Positions 7,338-35,228 of a stretch of 45,203 nucleotides of DNA are shown here, piece after piece; the stretch's first letter is position 1, and every line of letters starts with the position of its first letter. Position numbers and translations under genes: made by a program. The notes beneath the pieces were generated by a model. It was given only the letters and a program-made list of their open reading frames with translations, searched no databases and was not told the origin of the DNA. Source of the stretch: Candidatus Gastranaerophilales bacterium (GTDB taxonomy: Bacteria; Cyanobacteriota; Vampirovibrionia; Gastranaerophilales; Gastranaerophilaceae); contig CALVBO010000011.1 of NCBI GenBank assembly GCA_944325835.1, positions 1-45,203 of the forward strand, in the 5' to 3' direction.

Positions 7338-7418
7338 TGTCATGCTGAACTTGTTTCAGCATCTATCCGGTGTTAAGTTTTATCGTTGGACAGATCCCGA
7401 AACGAGTTCGGGATGACA
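7338..7418. repeat. Composite dispersed repeat (81 bp) between rpsH and rplF
   Basis: Two hairpin units in opposite orientation: TGTCATGCTGAACTTGTTTC...AGCAT at the left and ATCCCGAAACGAGTTCGGGATGACA at the right, so the element starts TGTCAT and ends ATGACA. The same architecture occurs at 18793-18879 and 33885-33972. In this copy it is non-coding, inside the ribosomal protein operon, and lacks a T tract, so read-through is expected. Confidence 0.85.
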
Positions 7419-18389: not shown

Positions 18390-18418
18390 TTGACGAAACG
18401 TAGAACATGGTACATAAT
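18390..18418 (+). promoter_or_regulatory. Promoter of pilin-like gene copy 1
   Basis: TTGACG (18390-18395), a 17-base spacer, CATAAT (18413-18418). Copies 3 (29148) and 4 (33736) have the same -10, CATAAT, at the same spacing, and all four share TTGAC(G/T). It begins immediately after rlmH. Confidence 0.85.
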
Positions 18419-18690
18419 AAAAGAGGCAATAAGTCAATAAGAGAATAAGGCAAAGAGTCGTTATTGTCGAAAGGACGAGAAAAGTTAATAAGTTAATAGG
18501 TTAAAAAGTTAATAAGGAATATGACCGAATGTAAGAGAAATAAACCCGGATAAAATTTCATAATCCTAATTAACTAATTAACAAGCTAAAGTAGGTTGGG
18601 CTTGCCAGCCCAACACAAAACAAAGAAAGGACCGGCGGTCAAGCCGGTATTATAATAAGCCAAAGGCGAGAAGCCAGAAAGGATAGAGAA
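18419..18690 (+). other. Long 5' leader of pilin-like copy 1
   Basis: About 270 bases between promoter and start, against 25-85 in the other copies. It holds repeated GTTAATA-type strings (about 18485-18520), a GTTGGGCT-TGCC-AGCCCAAC hairpin (18595-18614) and an ACCGGC...GCCGGT hairpin (18631-18648), then AGAAAGGATAGA before the ATG, a ribosome-site context shared by the other copies. No gene seen. Confidence 0.5.
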
Positions 18691-20106
18691 ATGAAAAAAC
18701 AGAGAAGTGTAAAGATTATGACGGGGGGGGGGGGGCCGGCTGAGCCGGTTCTACAATTGGAACCGCGCGGTTGGACCACGAGAAAACCATATTGTCATGC
18801 TGAACTTGATTCAGCATCTATCCAGCATTGCGTGCTATCGGTAACGTTGGCCAGATTCCGAAACAAGTTCGGAATGACAGTAAAGAATATTTCGTCATTG
18901 CGAGCCGACGAATGTCGGCGTGGCAATCCGCCGGCGGTCGAGCCGGTTCCTAGTTGGTTGGTCGTTAAAAAGTCATGTTCAACCTCTCATGGACGTGCCT
19001 CAGGCACCTGGATCACCACGTCGCCTTCGGCTCCTCGTGATGACCGAGGTGTGTTGGCGCGTGCTGGTTTCACCATGGCAGCCCGGCTGAGCCGCTCGAC
19101 TGAGTCGAGAGCCATAAAGGGGTTATGGGCTTGCGGACAACGAATAGCCTTTACCATGGCCGAAATATTACTTTCCCTGACGATAATCGGCGTGGTGGCA
19201 GCGATAACGCTTCCGTCACTTACAGGAAATATTAATGAGCGTACGTGGAACACTCAGCGTAAAGCCTTGTATGCCAGAATGAGTCAGGCAATCGCGCTTA
19301 TGCCGGCGTTGAACGGCTATGGTACATTGACCGAAGGCGACAGTTCGACTTCCGCTGAGGATACAGCCGCAGAAACCTTTGTCACAGCAGGTTTAGCAAA
19401 GGTTCTTAAAATCAATAATATCTGTGATAGCGAACACTTAGAAGATTGCGGTATCGCAGATAATATCGTCACGTTGAAAGGTAATACTCTTTCTAATTTT
19501 ACTACAAGTTATAATACTCTTGTTGACTTTAATAGTATGTTTGCCGGCTCGTATTCTATCAGCGGGGTTACATATACATACTCGCAACTTAATACAAAAG
19601 CAGCGGCTTTTGAAACTCAAAATGGTGAGAGTATAGTTGTTTACTATAATCCAAATTGCGTCGGGGATATGGGTGAAACCGAAAGATATTTTATCCAACC
19701 GAAAATGTGTGCGAATTTTGTGTACGATTTGAATGCTTCTAAAGGCCCAAATACTGTGGGTAAGGATATTGGTTTCCTGACGGTTATGTATCCTTCTGAT
19801 TCGGTTGTTGTAGCACCGGTACCTCTTGTTTCTGCGTATGGTTATAATTTAAAATATGAAGAGGCCTCTCAAAAGTGCCGTGCTCTTGACAGTGAAAGCC
19901 GGCTGCCAAACAGAGAAGAAATTGTTGCCATGTTTGTTAACAGAAATTTGCTCTACGGCACAGAACGCACCGGAACATACTGGACTACCAGCAGTTTTGT
20001 ATCTAATTCAGGTATTTTAATGTGGGGATTGAATTTCAACATAGGACATCTATTCCCGTGCGGTAAGAATGCTACGAGCAACTATTACTGGTGCATAAAA
20101 CGTTAA
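18691..20106 (+). CDS. Type IV prepilin-like protein, copy 1 (in frame through G13, phase ON)
   Basis: 471 residues. A basic start (MKKQRSVKIMT) runs through the G13 tract (GGGG) into an unusually long leader of about 140 residues, partly encoded by palindromic repeats. Then comes the class III prepilin motif A|FTMAEILLSLTIIGVVAAITLP, with Glu at +5 after the likely cleavage point. Ala replaces the usual Gly at -1. The conserved block to about residue 210 is shared with the other copies. The C-terminal part carries MCANFVYDLN and KGPNTVGKDIGF motifs, then CRALDSESRLPNREE...YWTTSS...CIKR, a pattern like DUF1566/Lcl C-type-lectin-fold domains. Probably a surface pilin or adhesin; its function is inferred. 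Confidence 0.8.
   Translation: MKKQRSVKIMTGGGGPAEPVLQLEPRGWTTRKPYCHAELDSASIQHCVLSVTLARFRNKFGMTVKNISSLRADECRRGNPPAVEPVPSWLVVKKSCSTSHGRASGTWITTSPSAPRDDRGVLARAGFTMAARLSRSTESRAIKGLWACGQRIAFTMAEILLSLTIIGVVAAITLPSLTGNINERTWNTQRKALYARMSQAIALMPALNGYGTLTEGDSSTSAEDTAAETFVTAGLAKVLKINNICDSEHLEDCGIADNIVTLKGNTLSNFTTSYNTLVDFNSMFAGSYSISGVTYTYSQLNTKAAAFETQNGESIVVYYNPNCVGDMGETERYFIQPKMCANFVYDLNASKGPNTVGKDIGFLTVMYPSDSVVVAPVPLVSAYGYNLKYEEASQKCRALDSESRLPNREEIVAMFVNRNLLYGTERTGTYWTTSSFVSNSGILMWGLNFNIGHLFPCGKNATSNYYWCIKR
18723..18735 (+). repeat. Poly-G tract, 13 G (copy 1)
   Basis: Thirteen G starting at the third base of codon 11 (ACG). At this length the frame is continuous from the ATG at 18691 to the pilin domain. 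A change of one or two G would bring in stop codons and silence the gene. Confidence 0.9.
18793..18879. repeat. Composite dispersed repeat inside pilin copy 1 leader
   Basis: Begins TGTCATGCTGAACTTGATTC and ends CAAGTTCGGAATGACA: two inverted hairpin units as at 7338 and 33885. Here it is read in frame as protein (CHAELDSASIQHCVLSVTLARFRNKFGMT). Ending in a coding segment upstream of the pilin cleavage site, it would be removed with the leader. Confidence 0.85.
18894..18929. repeat. Second dispersed repeat (GTCATTGCGAG...GTGGCAATCC)
   Basis: GTCATTGCGAG and CGTGGCAATCC ends flank a short CCGAC/GTCGG hairpin. The same ends occur at 33980-34014, also about 10-20 bases after the composite repeat. 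Translated in frame as SSLRADECRRGNPP. Confidence 0.8.
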
Positions 20107-22284: not shown

Positions 22285-23166
22285 ATGCGGGTTGTTTTAG
22301 TCGGAAAAGGTCAGATGTTATGCGCACTTATTGAAGGATGCAGGGCATGCCGCGGTGTCGAAATCGCCGGAGTTTTCCGCTATGAAAACCTTATTATGCC
22401 CGAATGGCGTTTGAGGCTTTCGGATTTTTTTAAACCTTCCGTTGAAAACACGCTTATAAAAAAATATAAGTTGAAGGATTTGCGCTTCTCCTCTGTTAAT
22501 TCTAAAGAATTCCGTCAGTTTTTGCTGGAGAATAATATTGATTTAATGCTTGTCGGAACATGGCGTGAAAAGATTAAACGTGAAATCTTTGAGGTGCCGA
22601 AACTTGCATCAGTTAACGTTCATCCCTCACTTTTGCCAAAATACCGGGGGCCAAATCCTTATTTGCAGGTCATAAAAAATCGGGAAAATTTTTCGGGATT
22701 TACGTTTCATCTGATTGATGAAAAATTTGATAACGGTGCAATTCTTTATCAAAAAAGGATTGATATTTTGCCCTACTATACATCAAAAGAACTGCGTGAC
22801 AGAACCGTTTTTGAGGTAAGAGAGGCGCTGCCGGAATTCCTTGTTGCGCTTGATAAAGGTGAAATTATACCGGTGGAGCAAAGTGAGGCGTTAGCGACTT
22901 ATTTTCCGAACATTGAGGAAGATGAAATGATGCTTGATTTTGAGCGTGAAAGTGCCGTTGAGATTATGGCCAGGGTTAAGGCGCTATATCCGTGGCTTCC
23001 GTGTTACGTGACAATCGGCAAGGAGTTTTACATTCCAAATCCTTATGAAATGGAGATTATAAAGGAGTGCCCGAAGGGGATAAGATTGGAAGGTGATACG
23101 ATTACAGCAGGTTGTCGCTGCGGCTATGGGCTTGTAATGCGTAAGGTTAAAAAGTATCGGTCTTGA
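22285..23166 (+). CDS. Formyltransferase-family protein (Fmt-like)
   Basis: The 293 residues combine a formyl-transferase N-domain with an Fmt_C-like domain (ATYFPNIEEDEMMLDFERESAVEIMARVKAL). Catalytic features are visible: Asn and His in SVNVHPSLLPKYRGPNPY and the Asp in HLIDEKFDNGAILY. Typical Fmt has SLLPRWRGAAP; the different loop (SLLPKYRGPNPY) suggests either a divergent methionyl-tRNA formyltransferase or a paralogue with another acceptor, as in sugar formyltransferases. AAAGGAG precedes the ATG. The promoter of pilin copy 2 overlaps its stop codon. Confidence 0.82.
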   Translation: MRVVLVGKGQMLCALIEGCRACRGVEIAGVFRYENLIMPEWRLRLSDFFKPSVENTLIKKYKLKDLRFSSVNSKEFRQFLLENNIDLMLVGTWREKIKREIFEVPKLASVNVHPSLLPKYRGPNPYLQVIKNRENFSGFTFHLIDEKFDNGAILYQKRIDILPYYTSKELRDRTVFEVREALPEFLVALDKGEIIPVEQSEALATYFPNIEEDEMMLDFERESAVEIMARVKALYPWLPCYVTIGKEFYIPNPYEMEIIKECPKGIRLEGDTITAGCRCGYGLVMRKVKKYRS

Positions 23167-23191
23167 CTAACGTTAAAACATGGTTTAAACT
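23163..23191 (+). promoter_or_regulatory. Promoter of pilin-like gene copy 2
   Basis: TTGACT (23163-23168) overlaps the formyltransferase stop; a 17-base spacer is followed by TAAACT (23186-23191). It is the weakest -10 of the four copies. The start codon is only 25 bases further on. Confidence 0.7.
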
Positions 23192-23216: not shown

Positions 23217-24261
23217 ATGAAAGAAATTAAAAGTGTAAACATTTTATCAGGGGGGGGGGGGGAGCCCCTTAACAGTTAAATCAAGCGAACCCGCAAGCGC
23301 ACCAGGCAAAAGTGGAAACTGCTCCGCCTGCGGTTTTACAATGGCAGAAATCCTATTATCGCTCACGATAATAGGCGTAGTAGCGGCTATAACGTTGCCG
23401 AGCTTGACGGGAAACATTAACGAGCGCACCTGGAACACGCAAAGAAAAGCACTTTATGCCCGCTTTAGTCAGGCAATTGCCCTGATGCCGGCACTTAATG
23501 GTTATTCCGGTACTGAAACTTTTGTAACTGAAGGTCTGGCAAAAGTTCTTAAAATTAACAATATTTGTGATTCGGAGCATTTGAAGGATTGCGGTATTGC
23601 TTCCAAATGGACAGACTTTAGCGGTTCTAATATTTCATCTATTCCTAATACTTTGTATACTTTAAACAGTGCTTTTGATTATTCCAGTACTTTTGTAGAT
23701 GCTGCCGGTAATTCATATTCACACTCAGTTAAGGTTCCGGACACAGATGCTGCAGCTTTTGAAACAGTAAACGGTGAAAGTATTATTGTATATTATAATC
23801 CTCAATGTACATCTGATCTTTCAATTCAACTGGGTGGAACGACTAATTATGTACAAAAATCAATGTGTGCAAATTTTATCTATGATTTAAACGGCAATAA
23901 AGGACCAAATACTATTGGTAAAGATATTGGTTTTATTACTGCGATGTATCCTTCTGATTCAAATGTTGTTGCCGTTTCGCCATTGGGTAGTCTGTCTGAT
24001 GTAACAGGCAACCATAGTGCGGCAAGTGGTCTATGTCGGATACAATATGGTGATAGCAGTAGAGCTCCGAATTATGATGAAGGGGCTTCTATATTTATTA
24101 ATAAAAAATTTATTGGTATCAAAAATTCAAATACAATCTGGACGACGACAACTTGCGCGCCGAATAAGGCCTGGCGAATAAACATTTTGATAGGGTACCG
24201 TAACTGCTTTGAAACGGGTGATGAGCGTATGCAGTTCTACTGTATTCGGCGATCTGACTAA
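23217..24261 (+). CDS. Type IV prepilin-like protein, copy 2 (out of frame at G13, phase OFF)
   Basis: With 13 G the ATG at 23217 (after GAAAGGATAG) is read as MKEIKSVNILSGGGGEPLNS and stops at 23277-23279. With 12 (or 15) G the frame would run on, giving about 347 residues. The leader then reads SPLTVKSSEPASAPGKSGNCSACG and the mature part begins G|FTMAEILLSLTIIGVVAAITLP, with the proper Gly at -1. This is the shortest leader, without dispersed repeats. The internal ATG at 23341 has no ribosome site. The C-terminal block has NGESIIVYYNPQC, KGPNTIGKDIGF and a final WTTTTC...CIRR lectin-like motif. Its stop overlaps the priA stop by 3 bases. Confidence 0.78.
23250..23262 (+). repeat. Poly-G tract, 13 G (copy 2)
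   Basis: Begins right after codon TCA. At 13 G the leader frame and the pilin frame differ by one base; deletion of one G or gain of two restores them. No stop lies in the pilin frame between the tract and the pilin domain. Confidence 0.9.
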
Positions 24262-29147: not shown

Positions 29148-29176
29148 TTGACGAAAGAGAAAAAATAGTACATAAT
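29148..29176 (+). promoter_or_regulatory. Promoter of pilin-like gene copy 3
   Basis: TTGACG (29148-29153), a 17-base spacer, CATAAT (29171-29176), the same boxes as copy 1. The following GGCAATAAGTC is also shared with the copy 1 leader. It starts upstream of the divergent metallophosphatase gene. Confidence 0.85.
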
Positions 29177-29260: not shown

Positions 29261-30431
29261 ATGAAGAAACGAAAAGTATTGAGTTATGCAGGGGGGGGGG
29301 GGGAGCCCTGAGCCGGTGCCATATTTGGTTCCGCGCGACCGAACCACGAGAAATCTGAGAGAGAAGGCTGAGCCGGCCGCCGAGCGGCATCCACAAAGCA
29401 ACCCGAGTGGAAAATTAACGAAAGAAGTTTTGGTTCCGAGCAATTGGAGCACGAAAAATCTGATGGAGGATGCGCGAGCGTTGGCGTTTACCATGGCGGA
29501 AATATTGTTATCTCTCACGATAATCGGAGTGGTGGCAGCGATAACGCTTCCGTCACTCACGGGAAACATAAATGAACGCACGTGGAACACACAGAGAAAA
29601 GCGCTTTATGCCCGTTTTAGTCAGGCAATCGCCCTGATGCCGGCTTTAAACGGATATGGAACCCTGACCGAAGATGAAAGCGGCAGCGTTACAGAGGATA
29701 CCGCCGCTGAAACTTTTGTTACCGCAGGTTTATCGAAAGTTCTCAAAATTAATAATATTTGTGATAATGATCATTTATATGATTGCGGGTTTAGCAGTTC
29801 CATAACTACATTAAAAGCCGAGAAAATTTCTCTTCCAAAATCTTTTGGCGATTTAAATCCTGAGATGCTGACAGGGATTTCAGCTTTTTCTTATTCTATG
29901 ACGGATGTCAAGGCTGCTGCATTTGAAACTGCAAATGGTGAATCAGTTTTGACATTTTATAATCCAAATTGCAAAATGGATTTTAACGGAACTATGGATG
30001 GTTCGGGCGGAACTTATTGGTTTGCGCAGCCGAATGTTTGTGTTAACTTTGTATATGATTTGAACGGTTCTAAAGGCCCAAATACTGTCGGTAAAGATAT
30101 CGGGGTCATTGGTGCGATTTATCCGTCTGATACTGTTGTCGTAGCCCCGTATCCAAATTTACAATATGCATCTTCTGCCAGTATAGATCATTATAATGCT
30201 TTAAAAGTATGTACAAAACAGGATTTGGAGTATCGCCTGCCAAATGTCGAGGAGGCTATAGCGATGTTTGTTAATAAAAATCTGTTTGAATTAAGTATGG
30301 GGGATGAAGCTTTTTGGACATCAACAATTACATCTTCTGAGTATGCAATTGCAATGGCTTCGCGTTCGGGTAGAAAAATTAGATACTCCAGAAGTCTGGT
30401 TTCTCCTGGGGTGATATGTGTTAAACGTTAG
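29261..30431 (+). CDS. Type IV prepilin-like protein, copy 3 (out of frame at G13, phase OFF)
   Basis: The ATG at 29261 (after GAAAGGATAG) reads MKKRKVLSYAGGGGEP and stops at TGA 29309. With 12 or 15 G it would continue through an approximately 60-residue leader to A|FTMAEILLSLTIIGVVAAITLP, about 389 residues in all. An ATG at 29286 is already in the pilin frame but has no ribosome site. The leader has two related GGTTCCG...CCACGA strings that also occur in copy 1. The C-terminal block has NGESVLTFYNPNC, KGPNTVGKDIGV and RLPNVEEAIAMFVN...FWTSTITSS...CVKR, the DUF1566-like pattern. Confidence 0.78.
29291..29303 (+). repeat. Poly-G tract, 13 G (copy 3)
   Basis: Directly after codon GCA of the leader. 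As at copies 2 and 4, 13 G puts the pilin frame one base out of register. Confidence 0.9.
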
Positions 30432-33735: not shown

Positions 33736-33764
33736 TTGACTATTTTTAAAATATACTGCATAAT
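33736..33764 (+). promoter_or_regulatory. Promoter of pilin-like gene copy 4
   Basis: TTGACT (33736-33741), a 17-base spacer, CATAAT (33759-33764), immediately after tsaB. The leader is short (about 35 bases) with AAGAAAGGATGGA before the ATG. Confidence 0.85.
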
Positions 33765-33799: not shown

Positions 33800-35228
33800 A
33801 TGAAACAAAGGAGAGTATTAATTTTTACAGGGGGGGGGGGGGCCTCTCTTAACAGGCACTATTGAACAGTCGAAAGCCATTAATTGTCATTCCGAACTTG
33901 TTTCGGAATCTGTCCCACAATACGAGCAGATATCCCACATTGGCCAGACCCTGAAACGAGTTCAGGGTGACAATATTTCGTCATTGCGAGCGGTAGCAGA
34001 CCGCGTGGCAATCCAGTCAACGTTGGTACTGCGCCTCGCGTTTTCTTGTTCGACTCGCGGAAAACGTGCCTACGTGCTTTCAGCACTCCGCACTCCGCTC
34101 GCTCACGCAAACGCCACCGCTCGCGCTTGCGCGAAAGAGCGCGCCGGCAAAGCCGGTCTTATAACGTTACGACAAAACCTACCAACGTATCGGGGAAGTG
34201 CCTCAGGCACGCCGCGTCGCGCGCTCGACTCTACACAAGGCAAGCCTTGTTCCGTGGCTCTGCTCGGCTTGGCCTTTACCATGGCGGAGATACTATTATC
34301 TCTCACGATAATCGGTGTTGTTGCAGCGATAACGTTACCAAGTTTAACTGGCAACATAAACGAGAGAACTTGGAATACTCAACGAAAGGCACTTTATGCG
34401 AGATTTTCTCAAGCAATAGCACTAATGCCTGCTTTGAATGGTTATGGAACATTAACAGAAGATAGTTCTTCAGGAGCTTCTGATGCTGTCGATACTGCGG
34501 CTGAAACTTTTGTAACAGATGGACTCTCAAAAGTTTTAAAGATAAATAATATATGTGATAGTGAGCATTTAGAAGATTGCGGAATTGTAGATAAGTTCAC
34601 AAATTTTGCAGGAAGTGTAGTAGAATCTTTTCCAAAAACATTAAAGGAGTTAAACATTTTATTTACTGAGGACATCTCTACTCCGGCCGTTCCTGGTGTT
34701 ATATTTAAAAATCCTCAGGCAAATATAAATACCAAAGTCGCAGCCTTTGAAACTGCAAATGGAGAGTCTGTTGCCGTTTTCTATAATCCTCAGTGTCAGC
34801 CTGCTATGTCTGAAAATTCAGCTTACTATGTTATGCCTAAAATGTGTGCAAATTTTATTTATGACTTAAATGGGAACAAAGGGCCGAATACCGTAGGCAA
34901 AGATATTGGGTTTATGAGTATTCTATATCCGACAGATTCTTTTGTCGTTGCACCGGTAGTTTTAAGCAGAAGCTCTAATGTTATGGATAAGGATGCTGCC
35001 GTTTCTTATTGTCGCAATCTGGATTCGGAAAGTCGTTTGCCTACAACTTATGAATTGATGTCTATGGTATACAATAATATTTTATTTGGAGATTTTATTG
35101 ATGGAAGCGTTTGGTCAAGTTCAGTGCTTTCTTCGGAAAAAGCTTGGCGACAAAGTTTTAAAACGGGTCAGGCTTCGCCTGCAATAATTAACGAACAATA
35201 TTTTGTGTTTTGTGTTAAAAGAAACTAA
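33800..35228 (+). CDS. Type IV prepilin-like protein, copy 4 (out of frame at G13, phase OFF)
   Basis: The ATG at 33800 reads MKQRRVLIFTGGGG and then A, ending at TGA 33863. The pilin frame is open from the G tract to 35228, so 12 or 15 G would give about 475 residues. The leader of some 150 residues is made partly of dispersed repeats read in frame (CHSELVSESVPQ; SSLRAVADRVAIQ) and GC-rich Arg/Ala sequence. The mature start is A|FTMAEILLSLTIIGVVAAITLP. The C-terminal part has FYNPQC, MCANFIYDLNGNKGPNTVGKDIGF and CRNLDSESRLPTTYEL...VWSSSVLSSEKAW...CVKR, the clearest DUF1566/Lcl match of the four. Confidence 0.78.
33830..33842 (+). repeat. Poly-G tract, 13 G (copy 4)
   Basis: Follows codon ACA of the leader. 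The register is as in copies 2 and 3: one base out of the pilin frame. Confidence 0.9.
33885..33972. repeat. Composite dispersed repeat inside pilin copy 4 leader
   Basis: Starts TGTCATTCCGAACTTGTTTC and ends GAAACGAGTTCAGGGTGACA: the same two-unit inverted design as 7338 and 18793, but with different bases in the hairpin arms (CCGAA/TTCGG; CCTGAA/TTCAGG) that keep pairing. It is open in the pilin frame. Confidence 0.85.
33980..34014. repeat. Second dispersed repeat in copy 4 leader
   Basis: GTCATTGCGAG...GCGTGGCAATCC, partner of 18894-18929; the inner hairpin differs (GCGGT/ACCGC) but still pairs. Both copies follow a composite repeat at nearly the same distance. Confidence 0.8.

Follow-up and report, generated by a model that had tools for sequence, protein, structure and literature searches.

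The Candidatus Gastranaerophilus genome analyzed here (G000; 1.95 Mb, 44 contigs, 99% complete) carries roughly 60–75 scattered copies of a putative pilin-adhesin gene with a poly-G tract, and we consider it probable that these dispersed, separately promoted genes are switched independently by their tracts. Slippage of the G tract in the DNA would join or separate the start codon and the pilin frame, and since each tract would set the frame of its own copy, every copy would turn on and off independently; at any time, most copies would be out of frame and a minority in frame together. The product would be a type IV pilin with a hypervariable tip of Lcl-like C-type-lectin fold. Recombination would add a second layer of variation, in which loci swap leaders, cassettes, and variable domains and entire units are acquired or lost. 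As the tract lengths are consensus calls of MAG assemblies, reversible switching within one population is putative; such switching may confer an advantage.

The window, by which we mean the whole stretch of 45,203 nucleotides that was analyzed, contains 4 runs of at least 7 G, each 13 long (Table 1), and 20 matches to a G9 pattern compared to 0.07 expected from shuffles. Each tract lies 30–33 bases 3' of an ATG, and the number of G sets the frame of the copy. An earlier note on this DNA had described a 471-codon reading frame from ATG 18691 at 13 G, and this frame is indeed open to 20106. It crosses a 138-codon leader with dispersed repeats between tract and pilin, and the 471 codons therefore correspond to a 153-residue leader plus a 318-residue mature pilin; a leader of such length is unusual for prepilins and counts against the switch reading. 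The requirement of 12 or 15 G for copies 2–4 likewise holds from ATG 23217, 29261, and 33800, with 9 G as a further in-frame count for copies 2 and 3. Thus, as the note had it, tracts of equal length stand in differing registers, copy 1 being in frame and copies 2–4 one base too long (+1) from their conserved starts. When the conserved starts are used, no other member than copy 1 is in frame at 13 G; this does not extend to a second ATG of copy 3 at 29286 (ATGCAGGGG), from which a 381-codon ORF is open at 13 G and which no ribosome-binding site precedes at a suitable spacing. The set of 4 copies is itself an effect of the window, the genome having 95 tracts of at least 9 G (55 + 40) and 98 matches to the pilin N-terminus, and the in-frame fraction of the window (1/4) is near the genome-wide value.

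Table 1. Elements of the 4 tract-bearing pilin copies, in window coordinates.
Feature	Position	Strand	Remark
Copy 1 promoter-like TTGACG-N17-CATAAT	18390..18418	+	read in sequence; motif before nearly all copies
Copy 1 ribosome-binding site AAGGAT	18679..18684	+	conserved in cassette
Copy 1 start cassette MKKQRSVKIM(T)	18691..18722	+	
Copy 1 G13 tract, in frame (13 = needed register)	18723..18735	+	
Copy 1 leader, 138 codons, open, dispersed repeats	18736..19149	+	
Copy 1 mature pilin; C-terminal Lcl-like C-type-lectin fold, residues about 210–318	19150..20103	+	fold predicted
Copy 2 promoter-like TTGACT-N17-TAAACT	23163..23191	+	read in sequence
Copy 2 start cassette MKEIKSVNILS	23217..23249	+	
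Copy 2 G13 tract, out of frame (+1)	23250..23262	+	
Copy 2 leader, 24 codons	23263..23334	+	
Copy 2 mature pilin	23335..24258	+	
Copy 3 promoter-like TTGACG-N17-CATAAT	29148..29176	+	read in sequence
Copy 3 start cassette MKKRKVLSYA; holds second ATG 29286	29261..29290	+	
Copy 3 G13 tract, out of frame (+1) from ATG 29261	29291..29303	+	
Copy 3 leader, 61 codons	29304..29486	+	
Copy 3 mature pilin	29487..30428	+	
Copy 4 promoter-like TTGACT-N17-CATAAT	33736..33764	+	motif scan upstream of copies
Copy 4 start cassette MKQRRVLIFT	33800..33829	+	
Copy 4 G13 tract, out of frame (+1)	33830..33842	+	
Copy 4 leader, 144 codons	33843..34274	+	
Copy 4 mature pilin	34275..35225	+	

A tract lies at most 900 bp upstream of 62 of the 98 N-terminal matches, some others being split by contig ends, and 62 of the 95 genome tracts, 12–14 G in length, precede this one family. 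Many contigs (e.g., C17, C27, C32, C33, and C35) break off a few hundred bases or less from a tract or from the start of a pilin; since the family breaks the assembly in this way, its size is a lower bound. The units share a common order, with start codons and promoters inferred from sequence: a promoter-like TTGACN-N17-CATAAT, AAGGAT, an ATG with about ten codons, the G tract, a leader, and an almost invariant mature start, FTMAEILLSLTIIGVVAAITLPSL directly after A or G. TTGAC was found upstream of 46 of 48 copies (9.3 expected), in front of in-frame and out-of-frame copies alike. At least 17 more copies lack the tract, 6 of them with a leader of at most 10 residues, and it is these short leaders (MNHA, MKQA, MKNLA), preceding the same start (e.g., MNHA/FTMAEIL), that identify where the mature protein begins.

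Leaders in this genome are longer (median 73 codons) than in congeners, where the part after the tract often comprises 5 codons, as in MNKKNVLPHA-GGGG-RLLTA/FTMAE. Repeats are dispersed among them, GAACTTGNTTC occurring in 26 and TCATTGCGA in 12 of 52 leaders; in the window, these palindrome-like repeats lie in frame inside the leaders of copies 1 and 4 and are also found at 7347–7399. They may resemble the in-frame palindromic elements of Rickettsia. Of the 58 leaders with at least 20 codons, the pilin frame is open in 56, where shuffles predict 5.1, and neither other frame is open in any. Furthermore, out-of-frame copies are full length in 39 of 41 cases and, over mature codons 1–42, show a pS of 0.75 and a pN of 0.001. 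Because of the open pilin-frame leaders and this selection, which is purifying and extreme, the out-of-frame copies are apparently in use rather than dead, and tract-dependent translation would be the simplest reading. Initiation 3' of the tract was rejected as a candidate, as the only ATG of the short-leader copies encodes M3 of FTMAE and its use would lose the cleavage site.

Registers were scored for 51 copies of the FTMAEIL family in this genome: 9, including copy 1, are in frame, against 37 at +1 and 5 with two bases too many (+2). The earlier note had likened the window to a snapshot of a repertoire expressed one antigen at a time, with copy 1 as the sole expressed antigen and 3 silent copies. 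Within the window, this would agree with a conserved start in frame in copy 1 only; genome-wide, it is most improbable, as 9 scorable copies are in frame together, at least 17 copies are tract-free, each copy has a separate promoter, and about half of the scorable copies are in frame in a congener (G003). With so many in-frame and tract-free copies, one-at-a-time expression is unsupported and independent switching fits better. What the present data bear out is the broader proposal of a surface-antigen family with a poly-G frame switch, in line with the open pilin-frame leaders, the selection, the length differences at equivalent loci, and the adhesin-like pilin.

Across nine genomes (n = 215), 50 copies are in frame, 144 are +1, and 21 are +2, with +1 being commonest in cassette A (98/163), cassette B (25/29), G018 (15/17), and G009 (5/5). 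The excess is seen again in each of the large cassette classes, which include unrelated cassettes, and in three genera; an exception are the A-type cassettes of G003, of which 14/27 or 17/29 are in frame under two start rules. The registers are thus non-random, and simple random slippage does not predict the excess, which suggests either contraction-biased slippage with selection against the ON state or a programmed frameshift. Under the latter, the DNA would be held at +1, and most copies would yield pilin at a low level because one G is lost in transcription or because ribosomes shift by +1 on GGG codons, the in-frame copies being over-expressed exceptions. Besides the recurrence of +1, such a mechanism is favored by the strong purifying selection on out-of-frame copies, by the closure of the pilin frame just 5' of the tract in many copies, and by different start-to-tract distances, tract lengths, and offsets that sum to the same remainder. 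However, part of this constancy is trivial, since a substitution at the tract edge keeps the sum unchanged, and some of the apparent compensations are single substitutions of this kind. Moreover, in-frame copies outnumber either other register in G003, loci that are equivalent between genomes can be in frame in one and out of frame in the other, and equally long tracts are in frame in single-copy genes. Within an out-of-frame interval, contraction bias would by itself produce an excess of +1 over +2; a toy model combining it with selection against ON gives this order, leaving the persistence of tracts at 12–14 unaccounted for. Weighing these points, we regard a programmed frameshift as unlikely. 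It is similarly unlikely that, as a conserved trait, several genera of this gut lineage keep dozens of pilin-adhesin genes per genome at exactly +1, showing their tips at a low level through slippage in the transcript or on the ribosome, with DNA slippage to full expression as a second tier. Independent switching by tract slippage is the reading that we retain.

The registers would be meaningless if homopolymer lengths had been miscalled, a concern that is raised by the use of MAG assemblies, by the many contigs ending at tracts, and by a relative (G004) with NN inside its tracts. However, single-copy tract genes of the same assembly, which include three SGNH/AlgX-like genes, an AAA ATPase, and others, are mostly in frame (6/8 compared to 9/51 pilins; Fisher p 0.002, where paralogs and the two compared genomes are non-independent samples and p-values therefore indicative only), which argues against homopolymer overcalling. 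The leaders are, moreover, open in the pilin frame only, and tracts recur in 6 of the 7 genomes of the genus examined as well as in other genera. An assembly artifact is thus very unlikely.

Tracts also occur outside the pilin family. Three tandem SGNH/AlgX-like membrane genes (L064:525-6802; G000 C5:120506-128311) are each cut by a G13–G14 tract, two being in frame and one out, and likely represent a phase-variable surface-modification locus. Tracts of G11–G14 lie inside genes for a Gp53-like tail-fiber domain protein, a LuxR-type regulator, an AAA ATPase, and a DUF2963 protein (L068, L069, L073, and L080). In another genus (G025), G14–G20 tracts follow a conserved CACTTTC context (L412–L439), some of which precede a distinct pilin-like gene. 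As a cause of slippage, a loss of mismatch repair was rejected, since MutS_V matches are present in the genome. Directly 3' of the gene with the best MutS_V match, a tract-bearing pilin starts (G000 C18:26209-26916; L091, L310).

Among six congeners, five have 72–117 tracts of at least 11 G and one (G005) has none; in the rest of the family, the number lies between 0 and 57, and in other families of the order it is 0–2. G005 encodes 15 pilin relatives and offers a natural tract-free comparison. The G003 contigs (JAMPIJ010000001.1 and other JAMPIJ contigs; L142, L177) were deposited as 'Fusobacterium sp. isolate NALB_7963_5'. This genome is probably mislabeled: it encodes the pilin family, and a genome search places it in the genus of the window.

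For change at equivalent loci, tract positions were matched by upstream flank (n = 42) between this genome and the relative G002, which is the same genome as MAG CALUQY and G059, with identical tract positions. Tract lengths are unequal at 23 of the 42 positions, though not all of these differences can be ascribed to slippage, since many accompany exchanged cassettes. At one locus (L061), 14 and 13 G are found between unchanged flanks, with 98% identity of the mature protein; at another (L062), 14 G out of frame compare to 13 G in frame, at 94%. Other matched loci keep their flanks and differ in cassette, leader, or mature domain. Copy 1 is missing from G002 and G004, where rlmH and rplU stand near each other, and compared to G002 it forms an extra unit bracketed by flanks that are 97.5% and 99.3% identical; G001 has another tract-bearing pilin upstream of rplU. 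At the site of copy 4, G004 carries a different pilin (50% identity) with a 12-G tract in frame, and at the site of copy 3 an 83% identical pilin with 13 G, out of frame, and a 5-codon leader, although G004 tract lengths are not relied on because of the NN inside its tracts.

Comparison of 74 mature sequences revealed nearly invariant positions 1–45, while roughly the last 75 residues are most variable, with YRLPN, YWSSS, and VxCVKR as conserved motifs among them. Members have the prepilin motif (G/A before F1, E5, and a hydrophobic helix), all 74 give weak matches to GspG/ComGE models, and the genome contains one PF01478 prepilin peptidase match above cut-off. The prepilin model TIGR02532, which is curated, reaches 12.4 bits on copy 1 compared to a cut-off of 16.3. 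For Lcl_C (PF07603), matches with an E of up to 1 were obtained in 58 of the 74 members, the best at 2.2e-9; copy 1 is without such a match, and a Pfam search with the whole of copy 1 returned nothing at E 0.01. The AlphaFold model of copy 1 (pLDDT 90, pTM 0.86) consists of a long N-terminal helix (3–49) and a C-terminal domain, for which Legionella Lcl (8q4e) is the top solved match (Z 11.0, 1.8 A over 91 residues); C-type lectins and intimin rank next. The mature protein is thus, as modeled, a type IV pilin with a hypervariable C-terminal Lcl-like domain, which would be assembled into pili and is probably an adhesin for host or microbial glycans. Lcl of Legionella pneumophila binds sulphated glycosaminoglycans (PMC11162425); it shares the predicted fold of the pilin C-terminus, but is a trimeric, collagen-like secreted protein and not a pilin. 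Glycan binding by the pilins is putative. No pilin relatives were found on viral contigs, which gives no link to phages.

Several known systems resemble parts of this arrangement. The opa genes of Neisseria gonorrhoeae form a dispersed adhesin family in which a leader-region repeat sets the frame and members switch independently, with several on (PMC3745409). In both families, every copy has its own simple repeat where the leader is encoded; however, the repeat is CTCTT in opa and a homopolymeric G tract here, about 11 opa copies compare to about 60–75 pilins, and the outer-membrane barrel of opa is non-homologous to the pilin with its lectin-like tip. In Campylobacter, intragenic poly-G tracts are the main source of switching, with a median of 20 tracts per C. 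jejuni genome and 81 putative switching repeats in one strain (PMC6321876). The putative use of such tracts is shared with the pilin family, whereas Campylobacter tracts affect many unrelated genes and peak at 9–10 G. The vlhA genes of Mycoplasma gallisepticum, like the pilin genes, form a large family of surface-protein paralogs, each of which is accompanied by a simple repeat (PMC6258824); the vlhA repeat is GAA in the promoter region, in contrast to a switch in the reading frame. Unlike a vlhA-like system, in which a single member is expressible at once, many pilin copies are in frame together and tract-free copies come in addition.

For Gastranaerophilales or Melainabacteria, a search of the open-access literature found no paper on phase variation or on phase-variable genes, and one paper that pairs this group with pili refers to general type IV pilus genes only. 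According to a 2025 review, genomes with many phase-variable loci are known mainly from pathogens, possibly owing to database bias (PMC11868660). If independent switching is true, the family described here would provide a commensal counter-example to this pathogen-centered picture and would rank among the largest repertoires that simple-repeat switching has been seen to provide within one gene family. The +1 register common to several genera poses a directly testable question on how the tracts are maintained. Widespread, uncultured, non-photosynthetic relatives of cyanobacteria in the gut would then carry a repertoire for switching lectin-tipped pili.
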